Source of the DNA: Lytechinus variegatus
Lineage: Eukaryota > Echinodermata > Echinoidea > Temnopleuroida > Toxopneustidae
Direction of reading: 5' to 3'
Assembly: GCF_018143015.1 (NCBI RefSeq)
Contig: NC_054757.1
Location: 19,272,285-19,336,284 of the forward strand
Length of the DNA stretch: 64,000 nucleotides
Shown here in pieces: positions 27,547 to 48,789 of this stretch (its first letter is position 1; every line of letters starts with the position of its first letter). The notes below the pieces were generated by a model, which saw nothing but the letters and a program-made list of their open reading frames with translations, was not told the origin of the DNA and ran no database searches. Position numbers and translations under genes: made by a program.

Positions 27547-30500
27547 ATGAGGGTGTTTATCTTTCTGTATATTCTTTTCTTGTTGGGAAGAACAGGTCAT
27601 TCACGATGTTCAAATCTTTGTGAGTGCAAGCAGAGGAGGACTTTGGTCGATGTGACATGCACAGATCTTGATGATATGCCTCAGGATCTCCCATGCAACA
27701 CTGTTTTGCTTGACTTGAAGAGCAATTCAATTACTGCACTCAAGAAGGAGTCATTCTCATGTCTCGGAACCTTGGTTGAGCTTCTCCTGACCAACAACCG
27801 CATTCGCTTAATCGAGAAAGGAGTCTTCGAGGATGCAACCCAACTGCAGTATATTGAACTTGATTCAAACTTCCTTCAAAGGGTTCCATACCTTGGTACC
27901 TTACCGGCTCTCCTGAAGCTATCAGTCAACAGGAATTCTCTGAAAGAGTGGCAACAGCAGACCCTTCGTGATCCATCAGGTACACGACTTTCATCGCTAA
28001 AACTGGCATTCAACAAACTCCAGAATCTACCTAAAATCCCATTTAGAGTATCATCACTAGATTTAGAAGGGAATGCAATCAGGGACATTTCAACAACTAT
28101 TTTTGCTTACCCCAAATTTATATCAAATTTGTGTATTTCATACAATAATATTGAATACTTGGAGAAAGCGCAAACGATGAAAAATCTGAAGGTTCTTTCA
28201 CTCGAATACAACTATATCAAAAGCATCGGTGAAACTCTATTCACTTGCTTTCCTTCAATAAAAAGAATCTACCTACAAGGCAATAAAATTGTGGATGTCT
28301 CTTTCTTTTGTAACATGCAACGTTTGGAGTTCATCTCATTGGAAGATAACCAAATCAGATTTGTGGGTAGACCCGCATTTACCAACATTTCCAAAATAGA
28401 ATCCGTCAAATTGAATGGCAATAAGATCGATCAATTTTCAAACGATATTTTCTTTAACGCACCGAATAGTCTAGGTCTTAACTCCAACAACATTTTAACA
28501 CTAGACGCACTGTATGGAAGGAATCATTCAAACGTGCATATTTTGAGTGTTGATAAAAATTATCTGCGAAGCATTTCTGTTAAGTATTTTCCGACGTTAA
28601 ATTATCTTTATGCTTCTCAAAATAAGCTCACAACTTTACACTTTGGAATTTCCGGACACAGAAATATTAAATACATTAACTTGAGATGGAACTGTATTTC
28701 AAATTTAACTAATTTTGACAACCTAAGCAACCTAACATACTTGGGTCTAAGTCATAACCTTCTTACTGCATGGGATCATAAATACCTGACAGGTTTGCCA
28801 AAACTCCGTTATCTCTTTCTAAGCAACAATAAAATGTCAGTGATTTCAAACTTTACAACATTGCCAGAACTAGCAGAGTTAGATTTGTCGCGTAACAATC
28901 TCCATATGATAGAAAACTCAACCTTTGATTCCTTACCAAACCTTGCAGAATTAAACCTCGCCAAGAATAAAATATCTTACCTAAATTTCGTCCGTTCGAT
29001 CACACCACTGAAGAGGTTGAATGTAAGTCACAACAAACTTAGGGTAATCGATCGTCAATATTTTTCAAGTTTAATCTCTCTCAGAACACTGGATTTAGCT
29101 TTCAATCTCATAACAGAGGTCAACCCCCTAAGCTTGACTTCTCTTCAAAGGTTTGATATCAGTCATAATTTGTTAACCCATTTAAATTTAAATCACATAT
29201 TTGATACAGAACAATTGATTTATATGAATGTAGAGGCCAATGGAATTACTGAAATCATCTCCATGTCAGCCTTACATATAAACATTAACAATAATGCTAT
29301 CGGATCTTCCAACTCAAGTGTTCTATCAGGAAACAACATTTTCTCCCGCAATAATAACCTGACAGACTTCAAACAGATAAGGATTTCACCTGATTTGGTC
29401 GGACTTTACCTGAAGACGAACCAAATTAGTTCCATACCGAATTTTACCTTCGTGTCGGCATCTTCACTCTTCTTTCTCGAGTTGGATGATAACCACCTTC
29501 TTGATATTCAAACTTTAGCTTTTATTGGCCTAAAAGATGTCGTCAGATTGAGCTTAAACAGAAACCGTTTGGTGTACCTCCCCGCTGGTGTGTTTTCACA
29601 CATTGAGCAGCTGTCGTATCTCAGGTTGAGTGGAAATCCTCTGAAGTACATTTCTAATCAACAGTTTTCAGGAGTGCAGAGCCGAATAGGTACCGGTATA
29701 GATTTGTCTTGCATACCCCATTCGAACAAATCCATAGACGTGTTAGGAGATTTGAAAAATGTTCAATACCTGAACCTTCATCAAAGTTTTGCTTTTAAAC
29801 AGTACTTTATAAGAAACACTACTATACAAGCAGATACCACTATTGAATTCCAAGAACTTTTGATATTTAGACTTTCTTCACTTAATCTCGGAAATAACTG
29901 TAGAGAATTGTTAATGAACAATTTGGCGGCACTTGATTTGTCTAACAATTCTTTTACTTCAATTCCAAGATACTGTCTACCAAAAAACAACAAGGCATAT
30001 ACTCTTAACTTGTCCGATAATAAAATCAAAGTCGTTTCTAATGATTCATTAGACAAGCAACAGCAGTTCTGGATGTTGGACTTAAGTTACAACAATATTA
30101 TATCATTCGAATTCGGTTCCTTGCAATATCAGACATACTTGACCGACTTAAATCTTGAGGGCAACCAAATCACCACACTGAATATTGGATATCTAATGTT
30201 CTCTTTGAAATCAGTAAGAATTAATTTTGAAAGTAATCCTCTGTTGTGTGATTGTGACCTCATCAAGACTTTTATAACCCTATGTATACATCAAAAAGAG
30301 AAATCCATGAAATGTGTTAAACCTGCAGCATACGCCGACACTTCAGTGGCCGAACTAGCTGCCGCAGACAATTTTAGTTGTCGCCCACAATTGTGCTCTC
30401 CATCATATCAAACCCTGTTTTCGTTCGTTGGTGAACAAGTTGAGTTACCTTGCCCAGTCAAACATTCAACATCAAGCAACACTTACTGGTCAGTAACGCT

Positions 30501-30849
30501 TCAAGATCTGCACTTCTCTGATAGAGACACCTTACCCGATGGAGTTTCCATTCTTTCTCATAATGCTCTTCAGATCAATAATGTTACCAAAAACATGACT
30601 GGTTTTTACACTTGTTGGAGTGAAAATGAAGCTGGGCAAACGAAATTCACCCTAAAATTAATTGTCAAGGAAAATATAAGGGAAAATATTGAAGACAGAA
30701 CTGACTATTCAGCAATGTTAGTCCAAAACTGGACGGACAATCTTCAGTGTGGTAAATCTCTTGCTACTATCAATATCATGAGTAAAAATTTGCTATCAAC
30801 GATGCTAGCAATGCAATCGATCTACCTTTTTTTTGCAAACTACAATTGA
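27547..30849 (+). CDS. LRR-Ig cell-surface protein, tandem copy 1 (intronless)
   Basis: Single open exon of 1,100 residues. I chose the ATG at 27547 because it is followed at once by a signal peptide (MRVFIFLYILFLLGRTGHS); an in-frame ATG at 27499 would put 16 polar residues before it. Order: LRRNT with clustered cysteines (CSNLCECK), about thirty LRRs of the LxxLxLxxNxI type across residues 55-890, an LRRCT beginning NPLLCDCD near 896, one Ig-like domain with cysteines near 969 (ELPCPV) and 1023 (FYTCW), a polar stalk, and a hydrophobic end with no cytoplasmic tail. There are many N-x-S/T sites. The architecture resembles LRIG/LINGO-type proteins or Toll ectodomains, but no TIR domain or transmembrane-plus-tail is present. 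The hydrophobic end suggests a GPI anchor or tail anchor. Binding or recognition is inferred; no ligand is known. Confidence 0.9.
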   Translation: MRVFIFLYILFLLGRTGHSRCSNLCECKQRRTLVDVTCTDLDDMPQDLPCNTVLLDLKSNSITALKKESFSCLGTLVELLLTNNRIRLIEKGVFEDATQLQYIELDSNFLQRVPYLGTLPALLKLSVNRNSLKEWQQQTLRDPSGTRLSSLKLAFNKLQNLPKIPFRVSSLDLEGNAIRDISTTIFAYPKFISNLCISYNNIEYLEKAQTMKNLKVLSLEYNYIKSIGETLFTCFPSIKRIYLQGNKIVDVSFFCNMQRLEFISLEDNQIRFVGRPAFTNISKIESVKLNGNKIDQFSNDIFFNAPNSLGLNSNNILTLDALYGRNHSNVHILSVDKNYLRSISVKYFPTLNYLYASQNKLTTLHFGISGHRNIKYINLRWNCISNLTNFDNLSNLTYLGLSHNLLTAWDHKYLTGLPKLRYLFLSNNKMSVISNFTTLPELAELDLSRNNLHMIENSTFDSLPNLAELNLAKNKISYLNFVRSITPLKRLNVSHNKLRVIDRQYFSSLISLRTLDLAFNLITEVNPLSLTSLQRFDISHNLLTHLNLNHIFDTEQLIYMNVEANGITEIISMSALHININNNAIGSSNSSVLSGNNIFSRNNNLTDFKQIRISPDLVGLYLKTNQISSIPNFTFVSASSLFFLELDDNHLLDIQTLAFIGLKDVVRLSLNRNRLVYLPAGVFSHIEQLSYLRLSGNPLKYISNQQFSGVQSRIGTGIDLSCIPHSNKSIDVLGDLKNVQYLNLHQSFAFKQYFIRNTTIQADTTIEFQELLIFRLSSLNLGNNCRELLMNNLAALDLSNNSFTSIPRYCLPKNNKAYTLNLSDNKIKVVSNDSLDKQQQFWMLDLSYNNIISFEFGSLQYQTYLTDLNLEGNQITTLNIGYLMFSLKSVRINFESNPLLCDCDLIKTFITLCIHQKEKSMKCVKPAAYADTSVAELAAADNFSCRPQLCSPSYQTLFSFVGEQVELPCPVKHSTSSNTYWSVTLQDLHFSDRDTLPDGVSILSHNALQINNVTKNMTGFYTCWSENEAGQTKFTLKLIVKENIRENIEDRTDYSAMLVQNWTDNLQCGKSLATINIMSKNLLSTMLAMQSIYLFFANYN

Positions 30850-31220
30850 ATATTTTCAGGAAGTTTCGAAATCTTTGTTTTGCGTTTTTATAGTGTATTA
30901 GTGAGTTAAGGGATTGTGATAGGCAGGCTTACTTTATATTCTTTTACGGAAACATATTATGGAAGTGCAGTATTGTGGTACTGTACGAAATAATAACTCC
31001 ACAGTGTAATTAATTCAATCACCTTTTTAACGGTTTATTGCTGCATTTGCTGTGACAAATATAATGTTACATTACAACTACAAGAACGTAGTTCATAAAT
31101 CGTCATAAAATGTCGAGTTTATTTTGAATGAAAGGACTGGATCATCCTGGCATCCCGTTACAGAAATAATTGCGTTTCAACTCAGTTTAAAAAAAATCGA
31201 TCACAAGTCCCTAATAAACG
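30850..31220 (+). other. 3' flank of LRR-Ig copy 1
   Basis: Shares AGGAAGTTTCG, ATAGTGTATTAGTGAGTTAA and GAAATAATAACTC with the 3' flanks of the other two copies, so it probably holds the 3' UTR. An AATAAA lies at about 31213. No repeat block like that at 39761-40900 follows it. Confidence 0.45.
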
Positions 31221-31224
31221 GCAT

Positions 31225-31372
31225 ACATTCGTAATTCTGAGGCTTCGTTATTCCGAAGGTTCGTTAGTCCGAAAACGAAATGAGGTTCGTAATTCCGAAG
31301 GTTCGTTAATCCGAAAACGAAATGAGATTCGTAATTCCGAAGGTTCGTTAATCCGAAAACGAAATATTCTTT
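31225..31372. repeat. Minisatellite, ~50-base unit
   Basis: Three units of TTCGTAATTCCGAAGGTTCG followed by TTAATCCGAAAACGAAATGA, the last incomplete. Confidence 0.8.
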
Positions 31373-31465
31373 TCTATTCTATTTTTTTTGTTTGCTATAC
31401 TAGCATCTTTGCAATATTTTTGTATAACCTATTTTTTACGTATTAGTTTGACCAATTTCATCGTT

Positions 31466-32053
31466 AAAAGAGAATGAAACCTTTAGAACAAGATAGCTTG
31501 TGTGAAAACAGAAAAATCAAAGAAACAGATCAACGAAAGTTTGAGAAAAATCGGACAAAATAATGAGAAAGTTATGAGCATTTGAATATTGCGATCTCTA
31601 ATGCTATGGAGATCCTCAAATTGGCTATGCGACAAAGCTGTATGATGTCACTTGTGAACAACTCTCCCCATTACTTTAGTATATATTTCACTTAAATTGC
31701 TTCTTTTATCTAATCTATCAGAAGATCATGTGTTCTTTCTATAGGAGGGCATGTAATACAGATTTTTAAAGAATACATCAAGGATAAAGAGTTTGTATCA
31801 CCATAAGAAAAAAAAAATATACATTTTGAGGGTAATCTATAGTCCATCAAAGGGAAAGTTGTTCACATGTGACATCACACATTCTTGTTGCATTGACAAT
31901 GGGAGGATCTCCATAGCATTAGTGATTGCAATATTCAAATGCTCATTACTTTCTCATTATTTGTCCGATTTTTCTCAAACTTTCTTTGTTCTTATTCTTT
32001 GATTTTTCTGTTCCGACACAAGCTTATTTGAACCAAAGGTTTCATTCCCCTTT
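31466..32053. mobile_element. Palindromic MITE (GAATGAAACCTTT family)
   Basis: AAAAGAGAATGAAACCTTTAG on the left mirrors CAAAGGTTTCATTCCCCTTT on the right. Interior blocks also mirror: TTTGAGAAAAATCGGACAAA with TTGTCCGATTTTTCTCAAAC, and TCTAATGCTATGGAGATCCT with GGATCTCCATAGCATTAG. Confidence 0.8.
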
Positions 32054-32069
32054 AAGTACTCATTTAAGT

Positions 32070-32228
32070 CTATATCAAGATAATAGGTTTGTGTATCATT
32101 TTAAGAAAATATTACGATACTTTGTATGAGAACTTTATATGTAACTTGCATGTTTGTAAAATTGATCACAATTCGGCCTATGGCTGCGATGATCTTTAAA
32201 TAAACCATTTTATCTATCTATCTATCTA
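32070..32228 (+). mobile_element. LINE 3' tail with (ATCT)n
   Basis: Ends CACAATTCGGCCTATGGCTG, CGATGATCTTTAAATAAACC and ATCT repeats, the same tail type seen inverted at 9130-9600 and 26341-26450. Confidence 0.5.
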
Positions 32229-32384
32229 ACAAGATTCTGTTCAAATCATAATACCCCTTTAAGCATGTTAAGCGAAACTTTCCAATGTCATCACTTTTTT
32301 ATTTTACATCTGATTTTGATGAAATTTCAGTGCTATGCTTGTTTGATTTTCCCCTTTTTTGATGGGCCTTGTTATTTTTTGGAA

Positions 32385-34185
32385 CTCCCAACACTTATAT
32401 TTTGAATTATCTATTGCCACAGGAACAGTTCCATCTAAACTAAAACTTGCTAAAATTGTACTGATTAATAAAAAATGACATACATACCTCAAACTACCGT
32501 CCTATTTCAATATTGCCTTTTTCTTCATAAGATATTAGAAAAAGATCTATATACTCCTATTTATGATGATTTGTGTATAAATAATATCATTGATCCATGT
32601 CAATATGATTTTCAAAAGAATATTTCAAGTGAAATGGCCCTAATTGACTTACATGATACGATTATTTCTTCTTTGTATATAAAAATTACACACGATTTGA
32701 ATCTTTATAGACTTATCTAAAGCCTTTGACTCATTAGACCATGATATCTTACTTAAAAAGTTAAATATGTATGGACTCCGTGGTGTTCCCTTACTATAGC
32801 TCAAAAATTATCTTTCAGATAGATTACAATATGTATCTTTCAATAAAACACTTTCTGACCCACTCCCCATTTATTGCATGCGGTATTCCTCAATGTGCAA
32901 TCATTGGTCCGCTTCTCTATATGTAAATTATTTATTTTTATGCTCTATAGTGTTTTTTATATGCAGAAAATACTACTTTGTTAATATCTCATGAAAATAT
33001 TGTTAAATTATCCAATGTGATATCAACTAATCTGAATAAGGTTAGCAAGTGGTTTGACAACAATAGACTAGTTATCAGTGTTGAGAAGTCTAATTATGAG
33101 TATTTCCATAATAAACAAAAAGCTTTCCCTATTGATTGAATGAAAATTTTACAATGAGATTGTAAAAATAAGTTTTAACCAACCTGAAGTGGTCCAATTT
33201 TTAGGTTGCACTATTGACCAACATGTTACTTGAATATATCATATTCAATCTATTCATGCAAAATTTCTAAACAACCACTGGCATCCTTAATAAATTACGT
33301 CATATTTTACCACGAACAATTATGAAATTATTATACAATACTCTTATCCTACCCCACTTAACTTATTGCAATAGTGTCTGAGGCCATACTTATACATCAC
33401 GTTTACAGGGTATCTATAAATTACAAAAGAGAATCTTAAGAACATGTACCCATGCAGAATTTAGAGCCCCATCAAAACATATTTTTATATCTCTTAATGT
33501 TTTAAACATATTCCAACTCAATAAATATTGCACAATAATCTTTCTGTTTAAAGAAACTTTAAATATAAACAAACAAATCCTTCCACGTACATGAAATAAC
33601 ATGTTTTATCTTAATAGTAGTATTCACACTTATAATACAAGAAGTTCTTCTAAATTCAATGTTGGTAAAGTCAATAAAGAGTTCACGTTACAACCAATAG
33701 GGCAGTATACTCATGCGCATCTTTCTGGAACTCCCTTCCCTCATCCATTTTTGTTTTCCCTTCTCCAAATGTATTCAAACGAAAACTCGAATTATATCTT
33801 TTATCTCACGATTTGAATTATTGATTATTTGACCAAGATCCTTGCTTTGTATTTGTAATGTATTTATATGTATTTCAATGTATTTGAATGTATTTATTTA
33901 TGTATTTTAATGTATTTCAGTTTTCTTCTCATATTCCTTTCTATTTTTTTTTAATTCTTCAATTCTGACATTCTTTGGTAGGATTACTGCCTCGACAAAA
34001 ACTTGCAGTATTCCTCAATTCCATCCTTTTCTTCAAATCTCTGTATCACCTTATGTAATATAGGCATGTTTACTTGTATATTTTCAAAATGTCTCTGCTT
34101 TGTATTGACAATCTGTTATTATGCCCACATGCATTCTCTGTACATTTATTCTTTTTATCGGAATTGAAAATAAATGAATTGAATT
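32385..34185 (+). mobile_element. Decayed non-LTR retrotransposon (LINE) with reverse transcriptase remnants
   Basis: At 32704 the frame reads [19 protein letters not shown], a classic LINE reverse-transcriptase block, preceded by remnants of the NYRP-type block near 32490 and followed by NYLSDRLQYV-type sequence. Near 32959 the catalytic YADD box reads YAEN, so both aspartates are changed, and stops and frameshifts are frequent. A thumb-like region near 33350 (LPHLTYCNSV, a stop, then GH) and IYKLQKRILR follow. The 3' end is GAATTGAAAATAAATGAATT. It resembles the Jockey/CR1-like group; clade assignment would need alignment. No 5' ORF1 is visible, so it is 5'-truncated, inactive and old. Confidence 0.8.
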
Positions 34186-34187
34186 AC

Positions 34188-34346
34188 GTGTCCAACCAAT
34201 TTTTGGGCAGTAATTTACCCAATGCGGGAAGCATATTGTCCAGCAAGGTTAAAAAATAAGCAGCAATTGCTTCAGAATGGGCAAAATTTTCATCACAATG
34301 GATAGATAAAAAGGCCGGAAAGAAATGCCCAATGTTGGTTGGACAC
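34188..34346. mobile_element. Short MITE, GTGTCCAACC..GGTTGGACAC
   Basis: Ends are inverted copies (GTGTCCAACCAATTTTTGGG and CCCAATGTTGGTTGGACAC). AATTAC precedes it and follows it two bases away, a possible target duplication. It lies directly against the LINE 3' end. Confidence 0.65.
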
Positions 34347-34509
34347 ATAATTACCCTCATGGAGCACTTTTACTCAATATTTCAAAGACTGTATTGTGAT
34401 ATGTTATTTTCCTTTTCAATGTTGATTTATTGACGACACTGTAAATATGGTAAATGGTGGCAAATTCACTGGCACTGAAATACCCACTGAATTATTTTCC
34501 TACCCAGGT

Positions 34510-34885
34510 AGCCCCCAAGTGGGGGCCATATGTGTTCTGGGATGATTTCCATCTGGATATTTCGCAGAACAACACACATTGGTCCCATGTGGGGCCCAAT
34601 TATGCTGTTCTGGGATAATCTCTATTCAGATTGCCCAGAACAACAAATATGGGGCCCACATGTGATGATCTGGGAGAATTTCTATCTGGATATTGCCCAG
34701 AACAACACACATTGGGCCAAAGTGGGGCCACATGTGTTGTCCTGGGAGATCGCGATTGCCCAGAACAACACATAATGGGAACAATGTGGGGCCCGAATGT
34801 GTTGTTCTGGTAGGATTTCCATATATAGCTTGCCCAGAACAGCACAAATGGGGCCCATATGAAGCCCACATGTGTTTATCTTAGA
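34510..34885. repeat. Minisatellite, ~60-base unit with internal palindromes
   Basis: Six to seven units built from GCCCAGAACAACACACATTG, GGGGCCCACATGTG-type and GTTCTGGGA motifs. Because CCCAGAACA and TGTTCTGGG are complementary, each unit can fold on itself, and all frames tend to be open. Confidence 0.8.
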
Positions 34886-34889
34886 TGTT

Positions 34890-35404
34890 TTCTGCTCAGA
34901 ATTGCCTGAATGACATATAGGGGACCCATATCTAAGTTATACATTTCTATATTTGTAGAAGTACTAAATAAAGTTTCAGTAACAGCAATTATATGAAATT
35001 CAAAGTTTAAAGATGATAAAACAGTTTACATTTCATCAAAAATTTTATTTAGGCTTCGAGCATTTAAATGAAAGATAGAAAGTTTTGACTTAACATTGCT
35101 AAACTGTCTACTGAATTCTTCACAAATTATATATTCACATGCACTGTCAAGCCAAATAACTGGATCAGAAAATGCATAAGCAACAGTTTTGTTCATTGAA
35201 AAGGGATTTTATTTCAATTTCAATTAATGCTCGATATCAATCGTCTTGTTTCAATCAAAATAATGAAATAAGGTCCAATGAAATTCACTATCATCTTCAA
35301 CATGATTGAATGGAAAAATAGTAGCACAACAATGCTGACATAGCCATGACTGAGTAGAGAAAAGAGTACACCTCTCACAATAAACTATAATTCCCTGAGG
35401 AAGA
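34890..35404. other. AT-rich spacer before LRR-Ig copy 2
   Basis: No exon, inverted repeat or tandem array was recognised. Confidence 0.4.
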
Positions 35405-35791
35405 GTTGCCATGAAGGATAATTACTGAGGATACGGAGCTGGGTAATTATAAATAATCAGACATCTGATCCAGTGTAGCATAATAACTTCTCGTTTTCTG
35501 CAAGATATTGAGGTCGTTGCTGCCTCCAGTACCTGTTTAATTATGATAGTGTCAAGAGCCTTTTTACATCATCTTAAAATACGACAACCAACAAACGAAA
35601 GAGCTTTTATCGGGACAGATTACGTGAGAGGATTTTGATTTTTTTTCTCACTTTTTTGGCCTTGAAATGGATAATGAATGAACATAGTGGACATTTAAAC
35701 GAAATTGTATTTCTATGGACACGAAAAAGGAAACTATTCTGCTTACATTCCGCTGCATATTCCATCGGATGCTTACAACCCGTTTGGCACG
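35405..35791 (+). promoter_or_regulatory. Conserved 5' flank of LRR-Ig copy 2
   Basis: Homologous to 27215-27546 and 42775-43152 (CTGAGGATACGGAGCTGGGT, then CCTCCAGTACCTGTTTAATT, then AATACGACAACCAACAAA). It is closest to the copy-3 flank, with which it shares ATCGGGACAGATTACGTGA-type sequence absent from copy 1. Confidence 0.5.
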
Positions 35792-38700
35792 ATGAGGGTG
35801 CTTATCTTTCTGTATATCCTTGTCTTGTTGGGAAGAACAGGTCAATCACGATGTTCAAATCTTTGTGAGTGCAAGCAGAGGAGGACTTTGGTCGATGTGA
35901 CATGCACAGATCTTGATGATATGCCTCAGGATCTCCCATGCAACGCTGGTTTGCTTGACTTGAAGAGCAATTCAATCACGGCACTCAAGAAGGAGTCATT
36001 CTCATGTCTCAAAAGCCTGGTTGAGCTTCTCCTGTCCAACAACCGTATTCGCTTAATCGAGGAAGGAGTCTTCGAGGGTGCCAACCAACTGCAGTACATT
36101 GAACTTGATTCAAACTTCCTTCAAAGGATACCATACCTTGGTACCTTACCGGCTCTTCTGAAGCTATCAGTCAGCAGGAATTCTCTGAAAGAGCGGCAAC
36201 AGCAGACCCTTCGTGATCCATCAGGTACACGACTTTCATCGCTAAAACTGGCATTCAACAAACTCCAGAATCTACCTAAAATCCCATTTAGAGTATCATC
36301 GTTAGATTTAGAAGGGAATGCAATCAGGGACATTTCAACAACTATTTTTGCTTACCCCAAATTTATATCAAATTTGTGTATTTCATACAATAATATTGAA
36401 TACTTGGAAAAGGCGCAAACGATGAAAAATCTGAAGGTTCTTTCACTTGAATACAACTATATCAAAAGCATCAGTGAAACTCTATTCACTTGCTTTCCTT
36501 CAATAAAAAGAATCTACCTACAAGGCAATAACATTGTTGATGTCTCTTCCTTTTGTAACATGCAACGTTTGGAGTTCATCTCATTGGAAGATAACCAAAT
36601 CAGATTTGTGGGTAGACCCGCATTTACCAACATTTCCAAAATAGAATCCGTCAAATTGAATGGCAATAAGATCGATCAATTTTCAAACGATATTTTCTTT
36701 AACGCACCGAAAAGTCTAGGTCTTAACTCCAACAACATTCTAACACTAGACGCACTGTATGGAAGGAATCATTCAAACGTGTATATTCTGAATGTTGATA
36801 AAAATTATCTGCGAAGCATTTCTGTTATGTATTTTCCTACGTTAAATTCTCTTTATGCTTCTCACAATAAGCTCACAACTCTACACTTTGGAATTTTCGG
36901 ACATAGAAATATTGAATACATTAATTTGAGGTGGAACTGTATTTCAAATTTAACTAATTTTGACAACCTAACCAACCTAACATACTTGGGTCTAAGTCAT
37001 AACCTTCTTACCGCATGGGATCATAAATACTTGACAGGTCTGCCAAAACTCCGTTATCTTTATTTAAGCAACAATAGATTGACAGTGCTTTCAAACTTTA
37101 CAACATTGCCAGAACTAGCAAAGTTAGATTTGTCCGGTAACAATCTCTACATGATAGAAAACTCCACCTTTGATTTCTTACCAAACCTTGTGGAATTAAA
37201 CCTCGCCGAGAATAAAATATCTTGCCTGAATTTCGTCCGTTCGATCACACCACTTCAAAGGTTGAATGTAAGTCACAACGACGTCAGGGTAATCGATCGT
37301 CAATATTTTTCAAGTTTAATCTCTCTCAGAAAACTGGATTTAGCTTTTAATCTCATAACAGAGGTTAACCCCCTAAGCTTGACTTCTCTTGAAAGGTTTG
37401 ATATTAGTCACAATTTGTTAACCCATTTAAATTTAAACCACATCTTTGATACAGAACAATTGATTTATATGAATGTAGAAGCCAATGGGATTACGGAAAT
37501 CATCTCCATGTCAGCCTTACATATAAACATTAACAATAATGCTATCGGATCTTCCAACTCAAGTGTTCTTTCAGGAAACAACATTTTCGCCCGCAATAAT
37601 AACTTGACAGACTTCAAACAGATAAGGATTTCACCTGATTTGGTCGGTCTTTACCTGAAGACGAATCAAATTAGTTCCATACCGAATTTTACCTTCGTGT
37701 CGGCATCTTCACTCTTCTTTCTCGAGTTGGATGATAACCACCTTATTGATATTCAACCTTTAGCTTTTATTGGCCTGAAAGATGTCGTCAGATTGAGCTT
37801 AAATAGAAACCGTTTGGTGTACCTCCCCGCTGGTGTGTTTTCACACATTGAGCAGCTGTCGTTTCTCAGGTTGAGTGGAAATCCTCTGAAGTACATTTCG
37901 AATCAACAGTTTTCAGGAGTGCTAGCCCGAATAGGGGGGTATACTGGTATAGATTTGTCTAGCATACCCCTTTTGAACACGTCCATAGAGGTGTTAAGAG
38001 ATTTGAAAAATATTGAATACCTGAGCCTTCATCAAAGTTTTTCTTTTAAAAAATACTTTATAAGAAACACTTCTGTGCAGGCAGACACCACTGATGAATT
38101 CCCAAGACTTGTGATATTTATTCTGTCTTCACTTAATCTCGGAAATCAATGTAAAGAATTGTTGATGAAGAATTTGGAGGTACTTGATTTGTCTAACAAT
38201 TCCTTTACTTCAATTCCCAGATACTGTCTACCAAGAAACAGCAAGGCATATAATCTTGATCTGTCCGATAATGAAATCAAAGTCATTTCTAATGATTCAT
38301 TCGACAAGCAACAGCAGTTCTGGATGTTGGACTTAAGTTACAACAATATTATATCATTCGAATTCGGTTCCTTGCAACATCAGACATACTTGACCGACTT
38401 AAATCTGGAGGGCAACCAAATCATAACACTTGATAGTGGGTATCTTACGTTCTCTTTAAAATCAGTAAGAATTAACTTTGAAAGTAATCCTTGGTTATGT
38501 GATTGTGACCTCATCAAAACTTTTTTAACCCTACCTCCAAACGAGAAATCCATGAAATGTTTTCAACCTGCAGCGTATGCCGGCACTTCAGTGGCCGAAC
38601 TAGCTGCCGCAGACAATTTTAGTTGTCGCCCACAATTGTGCTCTCCACCATATCAAACCCTGCTTTCGTTTGTTGGTGACAAAGTTGAGTTACCTTGCCC

Positions 38701-39142
38701 AGTCAGACATTCAACATCAAGCAACACTTACTGGTCAGTAACGCTTCAAGAACTCCAGTTCTCTGATAGAGACACATTCCCCAATGGAGTTTCCATTCTT
38801 CCTCATAATGCTCTTCTGATCAGTAATGCTGCCAAAAACATGACTGGTTTTTACACTTGTTGGAGTGAAAATGAAGCTGGGCAAACGAAATTCACCCTCA
38901 AATTAATTGTCAAGGAAAAATTAAGGGAAAATATTGAAGACAGAACTAACTATTCGACAATGTTAGTGCAAAACTGGACGGACAATCTTCAATGTGGTAA
39001 ATCTCTTGCTACTACTTATATCATGAGTAATAATTTGCTATTATCAATGCTAGCAGTGCAGTCGATCTACCTTGTTTCTCAAACTACACTTGCATATTTT
39101 CAGGAAGTTTCGGAATCTTTGTTTTGTGTTTTTATAGTGTAA
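35792..39142 (+). CDS. LRR-Ig cell-surface protein, tandem copy 2 (intronless)
   Basis: Single open exon of 1,116 residues from the ATG at 35792 (MRVLIFLYILVLLGRTGQS signal peptide). An in-frame ATG at 35705 would add 29 residues. It has the same domain order as the copy at 27547: LRRNT, about thirty LRRs, LRRCT (NPWLCDCD), one Ig domain (ELPCPV ... FYTCW) and a stalk. Protein identity to the other two copies is roughly nine residues in ten. It differs most in the LRR segment encoded near 37915-38180, where it carries two extra residues (RIGGYTGIDLSS). Its C-terminus runs on past the point where copy 1 stops, ending in a second hydrophobic stretch (SLFCVFIV), because a T-run in copy 1 has a different length. 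No stop or frameshift breaks the reading frame, so it appears functional. The 5' flank is conserved with the other copies. Confidence 0.9.
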   Translation: MRVLIFLYILVLLGRTGQSRCSNLCECKQRRTLVDVTCTDLDDMPQDLPCNAGLLDLKSNSITALKKESFSCLKSLVELLLSNNRIRLIEEGVFEGANQLQYIELDSNFLQRIPYLGTLPALLKLSVSRNSLKERQQQTLRDPSGTRLSSLKLAFNKLQNLPKIPFRVSSLDLEGNAIRDISTTIFAYPKFISNLCISYNNIEYLEKAQTMKNLKVLSLEYNYIKSISETLFTCFPSIKRIYLQGNNIVDVSSFCNMQRLEFISLEDNQIRFVGRPAFTNISKIESVKLNGNKIDQFSNDIFFNAPKSLGLNSNNILTLDALYGRNHSNVYILNVDKNYLRSISVMYFPTLNSLYASHNKLTTLHFGIFGHRNIEYINLRWNCISNLTNFDNLTNLTYLGLSHNLLTAWDHKYLTGLPKLRYLYLSNNRLTVLSNFTTLPELAKLDLSGNNLYMIENSTFDFLPNLVELNLAENKISCLNFVRSITPLQRLNVSHNDVRVIDRQYFSSLISLRKLDLAFNLITEVNPLSLTSLERFDISHNLLTHLNLNHIFDTEQLIYMNVEANGITEIISMSALHININNNAIGSSNSSVLSGNNIFARNNNLTDFKQIRISPDLVGLYLKTNQISSIPNFTFVSASSLFFLELDDNHLIDIQPLAFIGLKDVVRLSLNRNRLVYLPAGVFSHIEQLSFLRLSGNPLKYISNQQFSGVLARIGGYTGIDLSSIPLLNTSIEVLRDLKNIEYLSLHQSFSFKKYFIRNTSVQADTTDEFPRLVIFILSSLNLGNQCKELLMKNLEVLDLSNNSFTSIPRYCLPRNSKAYNLDLSDNEIKVISNDSFDKQQQFWMLDLSYNNIISFEFGSLQHQTYLTDLNLEGNQIITLDSGYLTFSLKSVRINFESNPWLCDCDLIKTFLTLPPNEKSMKCFQPAAYAGTSVAELAAADNFSCRPQLCSPPYQTLLSFVGDKVELPCPVRHSTSSNTYWSVTLQELQFSDRDTFPNGVSILPHNALLISNAAKNMTGFYTCWSENEAGQTKFTLKLIVKEKLRENIEDRTNYSTMLVQNWTDNLQCGKSLATTYIMSNNLLLSMLAVQSIYLVSQTTLAYFQEVSESLFCVFIV

Positions 39143-39760
39143 TAGTGAGTTAAGGGATTGCGTACGAAATAATAACTCAACAATGTGATTAATTCGAACT
39201 CCCTTTTTTCAATGGTTAGCTGTATTTTGCTTTGACAGATATACAATGAATCATATATTTCATATACAAGAACCTAGTTTATTATACAGATATTGACTGC
39301 ATAGAGGGAAATATAACATTTCAGATCCTGGAGGGGAGTTTTTGTCGAGGATTATTATACATTTTCCGTAGCGCGAAGCGCTGAGGAAAAACATAGTTCC
39401 CAAGATATAACTACCCAAGGTAAGTGAAATGATATATTGTTCCCGTAGGATATATACAGTGACCTGTATAAATGCATATTACAAGATAGGTAGAAAATTG
39501 TACTGACCCACAAATCTTGTAGTGGTGAGATGTAGAACAGAGAAGTACAGGAGAAGACCAATTCCATACCTAATCGAGTCACTTAATGCCTTGTAATGGT
39601 GTCGGGGAAAACTTTGCACTCTCGTTCTCTTACTTACTCTCTCCTCTTACTATCCTCTTTTTCCTCTGTCACCCCTCTCCTTTTCTTCTCGATTTTTATC
39701 TTTCACTGGTTTTTTCCCCCCTCTTTGCTGGGATTTCCATGTTATTGTTGTAAGAAGCTG

Positions 39761-40900
39761 TTCAATTGGGTGACATCCCGCGATACCAAAGGCCCGCGAG
39801 ACCGACTTTTTTCCCCTTCATCGGGTGCGATCGAGTGGTTTAAGGCGCCTCGTTGCAGCGGCGTAACAGGTGTCTTATCAGAGGGGGAGGGGGCAGAGCA
39901 AAAGAAAAATTCCCGATAACTAAGTCCAGAATCATTGGCTTTGCGAGGATTTCATTTGATGGGACAGTAGTGAGCATGCGACCCACGCGAAGTGTGCGAA
40001 ACACTTAATAATGAGCGCACGAAAGGCGCTCCATAAGAGTTTCCCCCTGCCGCGCGAAGCACGGAAGCTCCGATGATTACTTCGAATTGTTCCTTGCCCA
40101 CTCCTGCTCTTCCTACGTTTTCTGCCTGAAATGGGGGAGGGGCACAGCCAAAAAATTCGCGTTCACTAAGTCTAAAATTAGTGGCGAAGCTAGGATTTAA
40201 TTCAAGGGGGCGATAGTCAGCACGCAAAGCGTGTGAAATACTTACTGAGCGCAAAACGCCTTCGGGGGCGGGGGGTTGAATGGAGGTAGAACCTGTGACG
40301 ATCCTTTGAACTATTCCTTGTCTTCTGTTGCTCGTCTTACGTTCTCCTATACTTTCTTAGTTTCTCGCTGACGGTTCTCCCCCCCTTCTTTTTGGGGGGG
40401 AGGGGGGATTTGTGTTTGTTTGTTTTTCCTTTTTGCTACGAGGGTGTAATAAATTTATTAATATAATTGTTCATATATCTATTTATTTATTCATTCATTC
40501 AACTATTCTGTAATAGATTATTTTTTAATATCAACTTTTTTTTAAAGATAACATTTCAGCTTCTGCCAAAAACAGGCAAAGGACGTATTAAGATGTGCGG
40601 GAGCAGACAAGGAACGATTCATATGAACGTCGGAGTCGGTGCTTCCAGGCTTCTCGCGGGGGACAATCCCCATCCCTGAACCCTTCCCCCCCCCTACACG
40701 GAGCGCGCTTCCCGTGCTCACTACCGCCCTATTCTAGCCGGCGTTACAGGGAAGTATTTGCACTGCCCCCCTCTCGCCTCAGATAACAGGTATACGCCGC
40801 TGTAACGAGGTGCCTTAATCCACTCGACACCTGATGATGGAAATAAAAAAAGTCGGTCTCGCGGGCCTTCGGTCAAATGGTCGGATCCCGTTTAATTGAA
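39761..40900. mobile_element. Foldback MITE block downstream of LRR-Ig copy 2
   Basis: Long inverted ends: TTCAATTGGG, GGCCCGCGAGACCGAC and GGTTTAAGGCGCCTCGTTGC on the left mirror the right end (GTAACGAGGTGCCTTAATCC, GTCGGTCTCGCGGGCC, TTTAATTGAA). Inside are a CAGCGGCGTAACAGGTGTC pair and a GTGGCGAAGCTAGGATTTAA unit, so it is probably a nest of G-tract elements. No transposase. Confidence 0.7.
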
Positions 40901-41324
40901 ATGCGTGAGACATGTACATGTACATGTATAGTGTTGTCAGCCAGTTTTACCCTTCCTTTCCTTCACTTCTCAATTTCGCTGCTTCCCTATCTTTCTTCTC
41001 ATATCCTCTTCCCTCTCCCCTTTTCTTATCTCCATTTATCACCTCTTCTCTCTATCATCCACTTATCATGTCCATCTTCATTGTCTCGATACTATATTCC
41101 TCCATCTCTTTTCTTTCTCCCTTTCTCTCATTCATTTTTCCTTCTTCATATTTCTTGCAGTACAAAACCACTTGAGAAATTTGACATTGAAGTAGAGTTA
41201 TGCATGGTAGAATTGATATTTGAATGCATCATGTACATAAGTGCAATCATGTAGTGCAGTTACAGTGACGTACGCAACTGATGCATAGCGTTTTCCAACG
41301 GATGGCAATTTTTTTGTACGTTTT

Positions 41325-41859
41325 CCCGGGGGGGGGGGCACTTCCATCCACGAGTGGATACCATGCGCGACCATGGGGTCTCGAAAAGCACCCTAAACAC
41401 GTCATTTCCATATTCTGAAAATGCACCCTTTAACAAGTATTGGCGTGTGAAACCCTTCCCTTAACAAGTATTGGAAACAAATATTCCCTGAAATTAACCC
41501 CTAAACAAGTACAGGAATGTTTTATTGATACGGGTCCTTCGGTCTTCGGCTTTACCTTATTTGGTTTAGTACGACCCCACCGTCTATACCTCGCGCAAAT
41601 CGGACTCTAAACACGAAGTGTTGGGGCAAAAAGGACATCCTTTATAAAATATTTTAATTTTGTTTTATCATCCCCGCAAATTCGACCCTAAACACGCAAT
41701 TTTCCTAGCGAAATAGATACCCTTTTTCATTATTTTTGTGTTTTTGACACCCTTATCACGTTACGTACGTAACGTGCCTTATCGTGAAAAAGACATCCTG
41801 TTTACGTTTTTTTTTTGGTGACGCATGGTATCCACTCGTCAAGGTAACTGGCCCCCCGG
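41325..41859. mobile_element. G-tract MITE, CCCGGGG-ended family, copy with 8-bp duplication
   Basis: Same family as 23205-23769 and 62071-62630. The exact target duplication TACGTTTT lies at 41317-41324 and 41860-41867. The flanking sequence (GATGCATAGCGTTTTCCAAC ... ACATCCG ... CCGTAAGTGCAGTG) has an unoccupied relative at 22990-23095. Confidence 0.85.
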
Positions 41860-41867
41860 TACGTTTT

Positions 41868-42774
41868 ACATCCGTTTTGCATCCGTAAGTGCAGTGGGAC
41901 TGCTGTAACATACCATTGAATAGAATGTTGTATACAAAACTTAATTTAGAATCTAGAACCTTCTTTTCTGACAAACTGATAATTTCTTATATGCAATAAA
42001 TCTCTGGAGGTATGAACAACCAAATGATTTTCTAGCAATTCTCATTTTATTTATTTATTTAATTCATGCATGTTCACAATTTACAATGTAAAAGAATACA
42101 TAGATAACATATAAATATATACGAAACACAAGTAAATAATGAACATACAAAGGTGTTGCAACATAAGCTTTTTTTTTATTTCGGTTTTTTTCTATTTCAT
42201 CTTTTTCTGGTAACCTGATGCCATTCGATACCATTTGTGTAAAACAATCTACGTAATAAATATGTATTCCGTTTCCACATTTGTTCGCTCAAAGTAACAA
42301 CTTATATTTTTCCCCCATTGGGAGCCTAATTTTTTACAAGCTCTGCTTTTTATTTAGGTTTCCTCACTTTTTTTACATTTGTAGTGTACCTTATGCTTAA
42401 AAAAAAAAACTTATGTTAGATACTTAATTTTATCATTGATACACTATGTTTATGACCACATTTGTTACGTATATTATGATATTTGTTTTAAAAGTGGAAT
42501 CAATAAATGAATGAATGAATGAATGAATGAAGCTAAAAGCTTGATTGGTTGAAGCACCTTTAAACTTGTTTTCCATCCAAGCAAACAAAATAAAAATGTA
42601 AGAATAAGAAAGAGGGGAAAGAAAGAGAAGAATGTGAAAGACTGCCGAGATTTAACAATTAAGTTTCAAAAGAACAAAAGAGTCTAGCGAATATAATTAG
42701 TTCAAGAAACCTTTCAAGATGGCTGGGCAACTACTAAAGTCCTATCATAATTATTATTCCCTGGGGGTATGATG
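41868..42774. other. AT-rich spacer with LINE-like tail
   Basis: No gene seen. 42480-42533 ends AAGTGGAATCAATAAATGAA and then TGAA repeats, like a retroelement 3' end. 42040-42130 is similar in the opposite orientation. Confidence 0.4.
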
Positions 42775-43152
42775 CTACGGGAGGATACGACGCTGGGTAA
42801 TTGAAGATGAAAGTGATCAGATAATTTGATTTTGTGTAGTATGATAGCTTCTCATTTTCTGCATGATATCAAGGTCGATGCTGCCTCCAGTACCTCTTAA
42901 AATAGTGCCAATACCTCCTTGACATATTCTGAAAATACGACAACCAACAAAAAGAGAGTGCGTTATTTTATCGCGACAGATTACGTGAAAGAGAGGATTT
43001 TTATATCATTTTCACTTTTGTCTTGAAATTGATGATAAGTGAACAAATTGAAGCTTTAAACTAAACTACAAGTACGGACTCGAACTGTCTTGCTTCACAT
43101 TCTGCATACTATTCCATCGGACATGTCGGATGCTTACAACCCGTTTGGCACG
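42775..43152 (+). promoter_or_regulatory. Conserved 5' flank of LRR-Ig copy 3
   Basis: Homologous to 27215-27546 and 35405-35791 (GGATACGACGCTGGGTAATT, TGCCTCCAGTACCTCTTAAA, AATACGACAACCAACAAAAA). Just before the start it has a 9-base insertion, ACATGTCGG, relative to copy 2. Confidence 0.5.
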
Positions 43153-46100
43153 ATGAGGGTGCTTATCTTTCTGTATATTCTTGTATTGTTGGGAAGAACA
43201 GGTCAATCACGATGTTCAAGTTTTTGTGAGTGCAAGCAGAGGAGGACTTTGGTCGATGTGACATGCACAGATCTTGATGATATGCCTCAGGATCTCCCAT
43301 GCAACACTGTTTTGCTTAACTTGAAGAGCAATTCAATCACTGCACTCAAGAAGGAGTCATTCTCATGTCTCGGAAGCTTGGTTGAGCTTCTCCTATCCAA
43401 CAACCGTATTCGCTTAATCGAGAAAGGAGTCTTCGAGGATGCTACCCAACTGGAGTACATTGAACTTGATTCAAACTTCCTTCAAATGATACCATACCTT
43501 GGAACCTTACCGGCTCTTCTGAAGCTATCAGTCAACAGGAATTCTCTGAAAGAGTGGCAACAGCAGACCCTTCGTGATCCATCAGGTACACGACTTTCAT
43601 CGCTAAAACTGGCATTCAACAAACTCCAGAATCTACCTAAAATCTCATTTAGAGTATTATCGTTAGATTTAGAAGGGAATGCAATCAGGGACATTTCAAC
43701 AACCATTTTTGCTTACCCCAAACTTATATCAAATTTGTGCATTTCATACAATAATATTGAATACTTGGAAAAGGCGCAAACGATGAAAAATCTGAAGGTT
43801 CTTTCACTCGAATACAACTATATCAAAAGCATCAGTGAAACTCTTTTCACTTGCTTTCCTTCAATAAAAAGAATCTACCTACAAGGCAATAAAATTGTGG
43901 ATGTCTCTTCCTTTCGTAACATGCAACGTTTGGAGTTCATCTCATTGAAAGATAACCAAATCAGATTTGTGGGTGAACCCGCATTTACCAACATTTCCAA
44001 AACAGAAACCGTCATATTGAACGGCAATAAGATCGATCAGTTTTCAAACGATATATTCTTTGACGCACCGTACTGTCTAGGTCTTAACTCCAACAACATT
44101 TTAACACTAGACGCACTGTATGGAAGGAATCATTCAAACGTGCATTTTCTGAATGTTGATAAAAATTATCTTCGAAGCATTTCTGTTATGTATTTTCCGA
44201 CGTTAAATTCTCTTTTTGCTTCTCAAAATAAGCTCACTACTTTACACTTTGGAATTTTCGGACACAGAAATATTGAATACATTAACTTGAGATGGAACTG
44301 TGTTTCAAATTTAACTAATATTAACAACCTTACCAACCTATCATACTTGGGTCTAAGTCATAACCTTCTTACCGCATGGGATCATAAATACTTGACAGGT
44401 CTGCCAAAACTCCGTTATCTTTATTTAAGCAACAATAGATTGTCAGTGCTTTCAAACTTTACAACATTGCCAGAACTAGCAAAGTTAGATTTGTCCGGTA
44501 ACAATCTATACATGATAGAAAACTCCACCTTTGATTTCTTACCAAACCTTGTGGAATTAAACCTCGCCGAGAATAAAATATCGTGCCTGAATTTCGTCCG
44601 TTCGATTACACCACTGAAGAGATTGAATGTAAGTCACAACGATGTCAGGGTAATCGATCGTCAATATTTTTCAAGTTTAATCTCTCTCCAAACACTGGAT
44701 TTAGCTTTCAATCTCATAACAGAGGTTAAACCCCTAAGCTTGACTTCTCTTGAAAGGTTTGATATTAGTCACAATTTGTTAACCCATTTAAATTTAAATC
44801 ATATCTTTGATACAGAACAATTGATTTATTTGAATGTAGAGGCCAATGGGATTACGGAAATCATCTCCCTTTCGGCCTTACATATAAACATTAACAATAA
44901 TGCTATCGGATCTTCCAACTCAAGTGTTCTATCAGGAAACAACATTTTCGCCCGCAATAATAACCTGACAGACTTCAAACAGATAAGGATTTCGCCTGAT
45001 TTGGTCGGTCTTTACCTGAAGACGAATCAAATTAGTTCCATACCGAATTTTACCTTCGTGTCGGCATCTTCACTCTTCTTTCTCGAGTTGGATGATAACC
45101 ACCTTGTTGATATTCAACCTTTAGCTTTCATTGGTCTAAAAGATGTCGTCATATTGAGCTTAAACAGAAACCGTTTGGTGTACCTCCCCGCTGGTGTGTT
45201 TTCACACATAGAGCAGCTGTCGTATCTCATGTTGAGTGGAAATCCTCTGAAGTACATTTCTAATCAACAGTTTTCAGGAGTGCAGGGCCGAATAGGTACC
45301 GGTATAGATTTGTCTTGCCTACCCCTTTCGAACACGTCCATAGACGTATTAAGAGATTTGAAAAATGTTGAATACCTGAGCCTTCATCAAAGTTTTGCTT
45401 TTAAACAGTACTTTATAAGAAACACTACTATAGAAGCAGATACCACTATTGAATTCCAAGAACTTTTGATATTTAGACTTTCTTCACTTAACCTCGGAAA
45501 TCACTGTAAAGAATTGTTAATGAACAATTTGGAGGCACTTGATTTGTCTAACAATTCCTTTACTTCAATTCCTAGATACTGTCTACCAAGAAACAGCAAG
45601 GCATATAATCTTGATCTGTCAGATAATGAAATCAAAGTCATTTCTAATGATTCATTCGACAAGCAACAGCAGTTCTGGATGTTAGACTTAAGTTACAACA
45701 ATATTATATTATTCGAATTCGGTTCCTTGCAACATCAGACATACTTGACCGACTTAAATCTGGAGGGCAACCAAATCACAACACTTGATAGTGGGTATCT
45801 TACGTTCTCTTTAAAATCAGTAAGAATTAACTTTGAAAGTAATCCTTGGTTGTGTGATTGTGACCTCATCAAAACTTTTTTAACCCTACATCCAAACGAG
45901 AAATCCATGAAATGTGTTAAACCTGCAGCATACGCCGGCACTTCAGTGGCCGAACTAGCTGCCGCAGACAATTTTAGTTGTCGCCCACAATTGTGCTCTC
46001 CACCATATCAAACCCTGCTTTCGTTCGTTGGTGACAAAGTTGAGTTACCTTGCCCAGTCAGACATTCAACATCAAGCAACACTTACTGGTCAGTAACGCT

Positions 46101-46485
46101 TCAAGATCTCCAGTTCTCTGATAGAGACACCTTACCCAATGGAGTTTCAATTCTTCCTCATAATGCTCTTCTGATCAGTAATGCTGCCAAAAACATGACT
46201 GGTTTTTACACTTGTTGGAGTGAAAATGAAGCTGGGCAAACGAAATTCACCCTAAAATTAATAGTCAAGGAAAAAATAAGGGAAAATATTGAAGACAGAA
46301 CTGACTATTCGGCAATGTTAGTGCAAAACTGGACGGACAATCTTCAATGTGGTAAATCTCTTGCTACTACTAATATCATGAGTAATAATTTGCTATTATC
46401 GATGCTAGCAGTGCAGTCGATCTACCTTTTTTTTTTCTCAAACTACAATTGCTTATTTTCAGGAAGTTTCGGAATCTTTGTTTAG
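43153..46485 (+). CDS. LRR-Ig cell-surface protein, tandem copy 3 (intronless)
   Basis: Single open exon of 1,110 residues from the ATG at 43153; an in-frame ATG at 43090 would add 21 residues. Signal peptide MRVLIFLYILVLLGRTGQS, then LRRNT (CSSFCECK), about thirty LRRs, LRRCT (NPWLCDCD), Ig domain and hydrophobic end. Between about residues 430 and 540 it matches the copy at 35792 almost exactly (for example LSGNNLYMIENSTFDFLPN). In the variable block encoded at 45270-45550 it instead matches the copy at 27547 (RIGTGIDLSC, YFIRNTTI, EFQELLIF). After that it again follows the 35792 copy. This looks like a mosaic made by gene conversion or unequal crossing-over. The C-terminal tail is again unlike the other two because of T-run length (YLFFFSNYN, then a further hydrophobic stretch). 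The reading frame is intact. Confidence 0.9.
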   Translation: MRVLIFLYILVLLGRTGQSRCSSFCECKQRRTLVDVTCTDLDDMPQDLPCNTVLLNLKSNSITALKKESFSCLGSLVELLLSNNRIRLIEKGVFEDATQLEYIELDSNFLQMIPYLGTLPALLKLSVNRNSLKEWQQQTLRDPSGTRLSSLKLAFNKLQNLPKISFRVLSLDLEGNAIRDISTTIFAYPKLISNLCISYNNIEYLEKAQTMKNLKVLSLEYNYIKSISETLFTCFPSIKRIYLQGNKIVDVSSFRNMQRLEFISLKDNQIRFVGEPAFTNISKTETVILNGNKIDQFSNDIFFDAPYCLGLNSNNILTLDALYGRNHSNVHFLNVDKNYLRSISVMYFPTLNSLFASQNKLTTLHFGIFGHRNIEYINLRWNCVSNLTNINNLTNLSYLGLSHNLLTAWDHKYLTGLPKLRYLYLSNNRLSVLSNFTTLPELAKLDLSGNNLYMIENSTFDFLPNLVELNLAENKISCLNFVRSITPLKRLNVSHNDVRVIDRQYFSSLISLQTLDLAFNLITEVKPLSLTSLERFDISHNLLTHLNLNHIFDTEQLIYLNVEANGITEIISLSALHININNNAIGSSNSSVLSGNNIFARNNNLTDFKQIRISPDLVGLYLKTNQISSIPNFTFVSASSLFFLELDDNHLVDIQPLAFIGLKDVVILSLNRNRLVYLPAGVFSHIEQLSYLMLSGNPLKYISNQQFSGVQGRIGTGIDLSCLPLSNTSIDVLRDLKNVEYLSLHQSFAFKQYFIRNTTIEADTTIEFQELLIFRLSSLNLGNHCKELLMNNLEALDLSNNSFTSIPRYCLPRNSKAYNLDLSDNEIKVISNDSFDKQQQFWMLDLSYNNIILFEFGSLQHQTYLTDLNLEGNQITTLDSGYLTFSLKSVRINFESNPWLCDCDLIKTFLTLHPNEKSMKCVKPAAYAGTSVAELAAADNFSCRPQLCSPPYQTLLSFVGDKVELPCPVRHSTSSNTYWSVTLQDLQFSDRDTLPNGVSILPHNALLISNAAKNMTGFYTCWSENEAGQTKFTLKLIVKEKIRENIEDRTDYSAMLVQNWTDNLQCGKSLATTNIMSNNLLLSMLAVQSIYLFFFSNYNCLFSGSFGIFV

Positions 46486-47108
46486 TGTTTTTATAGTGTA
46501 TTAGTGAGTTAAGGGATTGCGTACGAAATAATAACTCAACAATGTGATTAATTCGAACTCCTTTTTTTCAATGGTTAGCTGTATTTTGCTTTGACAGATA
46601 TAAAATGAATCATATATTTCATATAAAAGAACCTAGTTCATTATACAGATATTGACTGCATAGATGGGAAATATAACTTTTTAGATCCTGGAGGGGAGTT
46701 TTATTTTGTCGAGGATTATTATATTTTTCTGTAGCGCGAAGCGCTGAGGAAAAACATAGTTCCCATGATATAGCTGTATATTGTTCCCGTAGGATATACA
46801 GTGACCTGTATAAATGCATATTACAAGATAGGTAGAAAATTGTACTGACCCACAAATCTTGTAGTGGTGAGATGTAGAACAGAGAAGTACAGGAGAAGAC
46901 CAATTCCATACCTAATCAAGACACTTAATGCCTTGTAATGGTGTCGGGGAAAACCTTGCACTCTCGTTCTCTTACTATCTCTTACTCTCTCCTCTTACTA
47001 TCCTCTTTTTCCTCTGTCACCCCTCTCCTTTTCTTCTCGATTTCTATCTTTCACTAGTTTTTTTCCCCCTCTTTGCTGGGATTTCCATGTTATTGTTGTA
47101 AGAAGCTG

Positions 47109-48239: not shown

Positions 48240-48789
48240 ATGTGTGAGACATGTACATGTATAGTGTTGTCAGCCAGTTTTACTCTTCCTTTCCTTCACT
48301 TCTCACTTTCGCTTCTTCCCTATCTTTCTTCTCATATCCTCTACCCTCTCTCTTTCTCTTATCTCCATTTATCACCTCTTCTCTCTATCATCCACTTATC
48401 ATGTCCATCTTCATTGTCTCGATACTATATTCCTCCATCTCTTTTCTTTCTCCTTTTCTCTCATTCATATTTCCTTCTTAATCTTTCTTGCAGTACAAAA
48501 AACGCTTGAGAAATTTGATAATGAAGTAGAGTTATGCATGGTAGAATTGATATTTGAATGCATCATGTAGTGCAGTTACAGTGAAGTAAAACACGATAGC
48601 GTTGCAATTTTATCTCTTAAAATTTTAAGATTCTTTTTTTAATAACATGTACTCGTGTCTCGTTATATGTAAAATTGAACATTGTTGGCATTGCATCTAT
48701 TTTCTCTTCCTCTTTCCTATATCTTTTTTCTTCGTTCTTCTAATATTCTGTTTCTCCACTCTCCATATCCCTTTTCTCTTCTTGTAAGC

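Follow-up and report, generated by a model that had tools for sequence, protein, structure and literature searches.

Sea urchin immunity is usually described in terms of expanded receptors with a signalling domain of their own. The locus described here raises the question of whether a sea urchin genome also keeps a family of large receptor-like proteins that have none, and, if so, how such proteins are displayed and what they might do. The three longest open reading frames of the 64-kb window (the whole stretch of DNA analysed) each encode, in one chain, a signal peptide, an array of leucine-rich repeats (LRRs) and an immunoglobulin (Ig) domain. These three genes, here called copies 1–3, and the parts of copy 1 are as follows.

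27547..30849, + strand: copy 1, whole coding sequence, 1100 aa, with signal peptide, LRRNT, about 35 LRRs, LRRCT, Ig domain, stalk and hydrophobic end
27700..30225, + strand: copy 1, LRR solenoid, residues 52–893, from the model strand list and the motif scan
30247..30381, + strand: copy 1, LRR C-terminal cap, with C901, C903, C923 and C945, by cysteine pattern only
30394..30666, + strand: copy 1, Ig domain, I-set like, residues 950–1040, from Pfam, PDB search and AlphaFold
30748..30750, + strand: copy 1, stalk cysteine C1068, from the alignment
30790..30840, + strand: copy 1, C-terminal hydrophobic helix, residues 1082–1098, of low model confidence, two residues from the protein end
35792..39142, + strand: copy 2, whole coding sequence, 1116 aa, the frame extending beyond the stop position of copy 1
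43153..46485, + strand: copy 3, whole coding sequence, 1110 aa, the frame likewise extending beyond the stop position of copy 1

Read from TTG, the frames of copies 1, 2 and 3 run to 1116, 1145 and 1131 aa; the likely Met starts lie at 27547, 35792 and 43153. Chance open frames are excluded as their origin, the next longest stop-to-stop frame of the window having only 252 codons. We use intronless of the coding part, as a UTR intron may exist in all three. Pfam found LRR_8 in 11–12 stretches of each protein (the scanned input carried two extra front codons in copy 2 and one in copy 3) and modest Ig matches at about residues 950–1040, with best E-values of 6.7e-6, 2.1e-4 and 2.3e-4 in copies 1, 2 and 3, of which copy 1 only passed a curated Ig cut-off (ig model, 24.5 versus 21.8 bits). 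When the Ig stretch of copy 1 was searched alone against the PDB it matched titin (2.4e-13) and contactin-1 (2.5e-11), and these matches settle the Ig identity of copy 1 at the level of sequence likeness; protein identity within the trio, and thus for copies 2 and 3, is 89–92%, a figure too low for the term 'near-identical' under which the three had first been described. LRRNT and LRRCT were assigned from cysteine patterns rather than from Pfam, whose LRRCT model did not score in copy 1. No TIR, kinase or other signalling domain was found in copies 1–3 by Pfam, and alignment and hydropathy placed no membrane helix with cytoplasmic tail of the Toll-like type in any of them. The initial annotation had read three uninterrupted LRR-Ig frames here, with signal peptide, both caps, one Ig domain and a hydrophobic end and without TIR, kinase or cytoplasmic tail. 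The ORF listing, Pfam and AlphaFold bear out the frames and their places, each of the named parts is present (the caps by their cysteines, the end in weak form), and the absences hold, such that the architecture of copies 1–3 is well supported.

An AlphaFold model of copy 1, built from an alignment of 24 family rows, reached a mean pLDDT of 80.4 and a pTM of 0.71. By our own count of its strand list the model contains 37 LRR-type strands between residues 52 and 893, and a motif scan identified 31 clear LRR motifs; from the two together 'about 35' is a fair number for copy 1, so that the long array first proposed stands while its size, given then as about thirty, is revised upwards. The solenoid is followed by a cap helix (903–912) and by Ig strands at 965–1038 (pLDDT ~60–80), the Ig fold being modelled with moderate confidence, and the stalk is disordered from residue 1045 (pLDDT <50) apart from the helix at 1082–1098. 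A Foldseek search with this model returned 616 PDB matches at E 0.001, and the best 50 of the 616 comprised 46 TLR ectodomains, two structures of the nematode Toll TOL-1, one of FLS2 and one of LGR5. The TM-scores of these 50 by query length are modest (0.23–0.38), and the likeness to TLRs is therefore general rather than detailed. The top-ranking PDB match by sequence was the IGF-binding acid-labile subunit (1.4e-40), ahead of TLR13.

Might a signalling domain nonetheless be joined to these proteins by splicing? A downstream exon adding a TIR was among the findings that the initial annotation had named beforehand as evidence against its own reading. A genome-wide search with PF01582, in which 96 of 96 candidates were scored, gave 43 matches, none of them on C18, the chromosome of the window. 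Six of the seven copies in the clade of copies 1–3 (the window clade) contain no GTRAG donor within their final 450 coding bases; the exception, L015, has two, of which one immediately precedes the stop codon. On these two grounds a spliced downstream TIR exon is unlikely, and on this point the first reading stands. A non-canonical donor, or a signalling domain other than TIR, may still exist.

Copies 2 and 3 each lie inside a 5.8-kb tandem duplication, and a dispersed repeat separates the two units.

35427..41235, + strand: tandem segmental duplication unit with copy 2, sharing 91.4% identity with the copy 3 unit
42781..48569, + strand: tandem segmental duplication unit with copy 3, from self-comparison of the window
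23212–23767, 41328–41859 and 62079–62629, unstranded: dispersed repeat of ~550 bases, 88–91% identical, the stretch at 41328–41859 lying between the units of copy 2 and copy 3

Between copy 1 and copies 2 and 3, one long match spans the coding region and short flanks, and a separate block of ~180 bases lies upstream. Three further copies occur on the minus strand, 57–91 kb before the first base of the window (19.181–19.215 Mb). The C18 cluster thus consists of six copies in two inverted triplets, three of them outside the window, and across the triplets the partner of copy 1 is L010, on the minus strand (95.5% over 3.86 kb). Haplotype duplicates were considered as the source of the six and rejected, coding DNA identity among them being only 93.4–95.8%. 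Elsewhere in the window, tandem and inverted repeat arrays with offsets of ~110 and ~160 bases occupy 6204–8111 and 10487–11610, and a serine-rich, acidic frame of 252 codons with no Pfam match at 59421–60176 (minus strand) is perhaps an exon of an unrelated gene. Pfam on seven other ORFs of the window gave nothing above a cut-off.

The genome is of echinoderm origin by its mitochondrial contig: under translation table 9, COX1 there reads AAA as Asn, ATA as Ile, AGA as Ser and TGA as Trp at sites where these residues are usual, and its product matches solved COX1 at 1e-255. This is the code of echinoderms, and the gene order, LSU rRNA-COX1-tRNA-ND4L, is of sea-urchin type. How far does the family extend? 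A search of 870 Mb of genome with copy 1 scored 42 of 268 candidates, so that its counts are lower bounds; it yielded at least 47 matches (E 1e-5), among them at least 24 intact, near full-length members, in agreement with the proposal of an expanded LRR-Ig family lacking coding introns. Six of the 24 form the C18 cluster, one is on C2 (87%), and 17, at 49–58%, are spread over C1, C2, C3, C4, C15, C17 and C19. Stops or frameshifts interrupt another five loci, although a single frameshift in such a locus could be an assembly error. Three pairs (L022/L024, L023/L026 and L030/L031) are 97.4–98.9% identical across the coding part and flanks, and on this identity each pair likely represents two haplotypes of one gene; when the pairs are merged the 24 intact members fall to ~21. 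On C1 (59–68 Mb) and C2 (22–32 Mb), several LRR and TIR genes recur at similar offsets of ~5.6–5.7 and 7.1–7.2 Mb. These regions look like retained second haplotypes, and local gene counts there may be doubled.

A more distant set of relatives, here called cousins, was recovered with a cousin as query (41 of 295 candidates scored). It comprises at least eight intact genes (four on C6, two at C18:17.0 Mb and two at C1:74.8 Mb) and one broken at C1:56.4 Mb; the four on C6 form two pairs at 97–99% identity, which may likewise be doubled haplotypes. Cousins align to the family over the whole length at 24–27% and end in a real membrane helix with a short basic tail. Pfam recognises the Ig domain weakly outside the window clade: of four members of other clades that were scanned, two gave a match that stayed below cut-off and two gave none, and of three cousins scanned one had Ig_3 below cut-off, one a weak match to other Ig models and the third none. 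In the alignment the two Ig cysteines are present in all 24 family members, and the stalk cysteine C1068 is found in 32 of 32 aligned LRR-Ig proteins (the 24 members and eight cousins) and is absent from two outliers, L047 and L048. C1068 may pair with C950 or with a second chain. The outliers themselves (L047 at C16:11.8 Mb, L048 at C1:6.4 Mb) are distant LRR proteins that also have a hydrophobic segment close to the stop or directly at it. An unrooted FastTree of all 34 proteins separates the 24 from the rest with support 1.0, and the group of eight cousins is also supported at 1.0.

If copies 1–3 have no cytoplasmic part, the question becomes whether they are held at the membrane by the C-terminus, as the initial annotation proposed, or released. 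The best 13-residue stretch of the last 60 residues is hydrophobic in 24 of 24 members (mean hydropathy 1.26–3.54) and is followed by no K/R in 15, by one in eight and by two in one; the eight cousins instead show an apolar run of 23–31 residues and then a tail with 2–4 K/R. The window clade lies low in this range (1.26–1.95 in six of seven copies, with L015 at 2.33 on a run-on end), and other clades reach 1.88–3.54 in 16 of 17 members (L018, 1.32). The hydrophobic end of copies 1–3 is thus real but weak. We scored all ends with a home-made GPI rule (small omega site, spacer and hydrophobic remainder, with a cut-off of 1.2 set by us) in place of a trained predictor. Outside the window clade, 11 of 17 members scored at or above 1.2 and four scored 0.40–0.92, while L018 and L019 failed; six of eight cousins had no site, the other two scoring 0.07 and −3.56, and the outliers L047 and L048 scored 2.5 and 2.6. 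Within the window clade, copy 1 scored −0.02, copy 3 had no site, L010–L012 scored 0.07–0.99, and copy 2 and L015 scored only on run-on tails, copy 2 not at the homologous place. As a control, internal positions of eight proteins were scored as if they were ends. Equally good internal positions numbered 0/980 in L016, 0/975 in L020, 3/979 in L027, 14/981 in L030, 5/996 in L014 (copy 2), 87/980 in L009 (copy 1) and 330/990 in L018; in the cousin L043, which has no site at its end, all 1014 internal positions count. By this home-made rule GPI-like C-terminal anchoring is likely for the family. Anchorage by the C-terminus alone is therefore plausible for most members and weak for the very copies on which it was first suggested.

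To judge from their ends, the window's copies may indeed be secreted. Carried further, this would make them decoys or opsonins whose tail has decayed, the protein binding microbes in the coelomic fluid, which we regard as possible though on balance unlikely. The window clade has some of the least hydrophobic tails in the family, four of its seven copies end in a polar N-Y-N while three extend beyond that stop, and copies 1 and 3 do not pass the GPI rule. However, all seven retain a mildly hydrophobic end, which AlphaFold models in copy 1 as a 17-residue helix (at low confidence), and in none of the seven has the stop moved inwards.

Selection and sequence exchange offer a second view of the family. 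Nei-Gojobori omega is 0.29–0.50 in the window clade and 0.24–0.50 for all within-clade pairs, and maximum-likelihood estimates (IQ-TREE) put the 24 together at 0.44, the window clade at 0.52, clade D at 0.55 and clade E with L018 at 0.41. Pooled over five clades, omega is 0.09 for the LRR framework, 0.52 for concave sites, 0.68 for motif edges, 0.37 for convex sites and loops, 0.35 for the Ig domain and 0.63 for the tail. The framework is strongly kept by selection, a result that is firm in each clade (0.06–0.14; window clade 0.14). Concave omega exceeds convex in three of the five clades (B, D and F), and it is these three that produce the pooled difference, for which the convex class includes buried residues; in the window clade (0.34 versus 0.35 for convex sites and loops) and in clade E (0.39 versus 0.41) concave sites show no such excess. 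Positive selection is not shown, pooled omega being <1 in every site class. Single classes exceed 1 in the window clade (LRRNT, 2.51), clade B (signal, 1.49; edge, 1.59), clade D (tail, 1.09) and clade F (signal, 1.02), but these values come from 20–62 columns and their intervals include 1. The copies exchange sequence: the closest relative of a copy switches along the gene, and a home-made compatibility test gave p = 0.002 for the C18 cluster of six and 0.001 both when the C2 copy was included and within clade D.

These habits bear on whether the proteins serve recognition of changing ligands at all. They might instead be adhesion or developmental recognition proteins, neural or gametic, with the expansion as lineage noise and no part in immunity: the Ig domain of copy 1 has its nearest sequence matches among the I-set domains of titin, contactin, DCC and Robo, and the vertebrate LRR-Ig proteins LINGO and NGL are adhesion molecules. 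We consider this improbable, as copy number, broken copies, clusters and exchange are, by analogy, habits of recognition families that face changing ligands. A relic or pseudogene cluster without function, to which the five broken loci might point, is very improbable indeed given 24 intact frames of ~1100 codons and a framework omega of 0.09 pooled and 0.14 in the window clade.

The reading that we favour, at roughly even confidence, is of an exported receptor-like family, most of it GPI-held and the window's copies perhaps released, in which recognition works through a partner with a cytoplasmic domain. The protein would lie outside the cell, probably by way of a GPI anchor at the short hydrophobic end, and its LRR surface would bind a ligand, whether microbial or self. 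A signal, if any, would be handed to a partner bearing a cytoplasmic domain, much as CD14 works with TLR4 and the Nogo receptor with its partners. An immune role is suggested by analogy, from family habits. More tentatively, we suggest that the family may form, alongside the Toll-like receptors, a further germline repertoire for recognition: some 21 distinct LRR-Ig proteins, each one open frame, with TLR-sized ligand surfaces, GPI-held or released and diversified by exchange, which would confer specificity on signalling partners used in common. Within the superfamily the anchor would then differ (membrane helix with short tail, GPI-like end, possibly secreted), one recognition design appearing in several display forms. 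If true, this would provide a natural panel of LRR surfaces, closely related to one another, on which ligand specificity could be studied, together with a change of membrane anchor within a family.

The LRR-Ig kind is already known in sea urchin, where Sp-Lrr/Igr_14 is termed a hypothetical protein with leucine-rich repeats in the available text of PMC2830187. The name Sp-Lrr/Igr and its host group imply LRR and Ig receptors numbered to at least 14, a likeness by name and description only; the peptide of Sp-Lrr/Igr_14 given there (eight residues and two flanking residues only) had no convincing match among our 34 proteins. Among the matches listed from a literature poor in subscription papers, none reported an echinoderm LRR-Ig family without a tail, nor is one described in the available portions of PMC2830187, PMC6043800, PMC13428168, PMC2575513 and PMC2772990. 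The Toll-like receptors of S. purpuratus number 222 genes that arose by germline expansion, according to the available text of PMC6043800. Sea urchin Toll-like receptors likewise combine a long LRR ectodomain, long open frames and germline expansion, and the genome searched here holds long open frames with TIR, many of 850–960 codons. In contrast, the LRR-Ig copies lack TIR and cytoplasmic part, have an Ig domain in their place and carry ~35 LRRs, and none of the 43 TIR loci is among the at least 47 matches of copy 1 (E 1e-5; 42 of 268 candidates scored).

Beyond echinoderms, LRIG, LINGO and LRRIG proteins of vertebrates, amphioxus and molluscs likewise have LRRs and then an Ig domain, all extracellular; the vertebrate proteins have fewer LRRs than the family here, and a membrane helix and cytoplasmic tail in addition. 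GPI-held LRR recognition without a signalling domain is found in the variable lymphocyte receptors of lamprey and in CD14. Variable lymphocyte receptors are assembled somatically, in lymphocytes, from incomplete germline genes, whereas the genes described here are complete in the germline, and their 24 complete frames rule out a system of that type. CD14 lacks an Ig domain and has a smaller number of repeats than the family here. A TIR-less LRR-Ig repertoire of such size would, if true, mean that in sea urchins too recognition and signalling are split between proteins, as they are in CD14.
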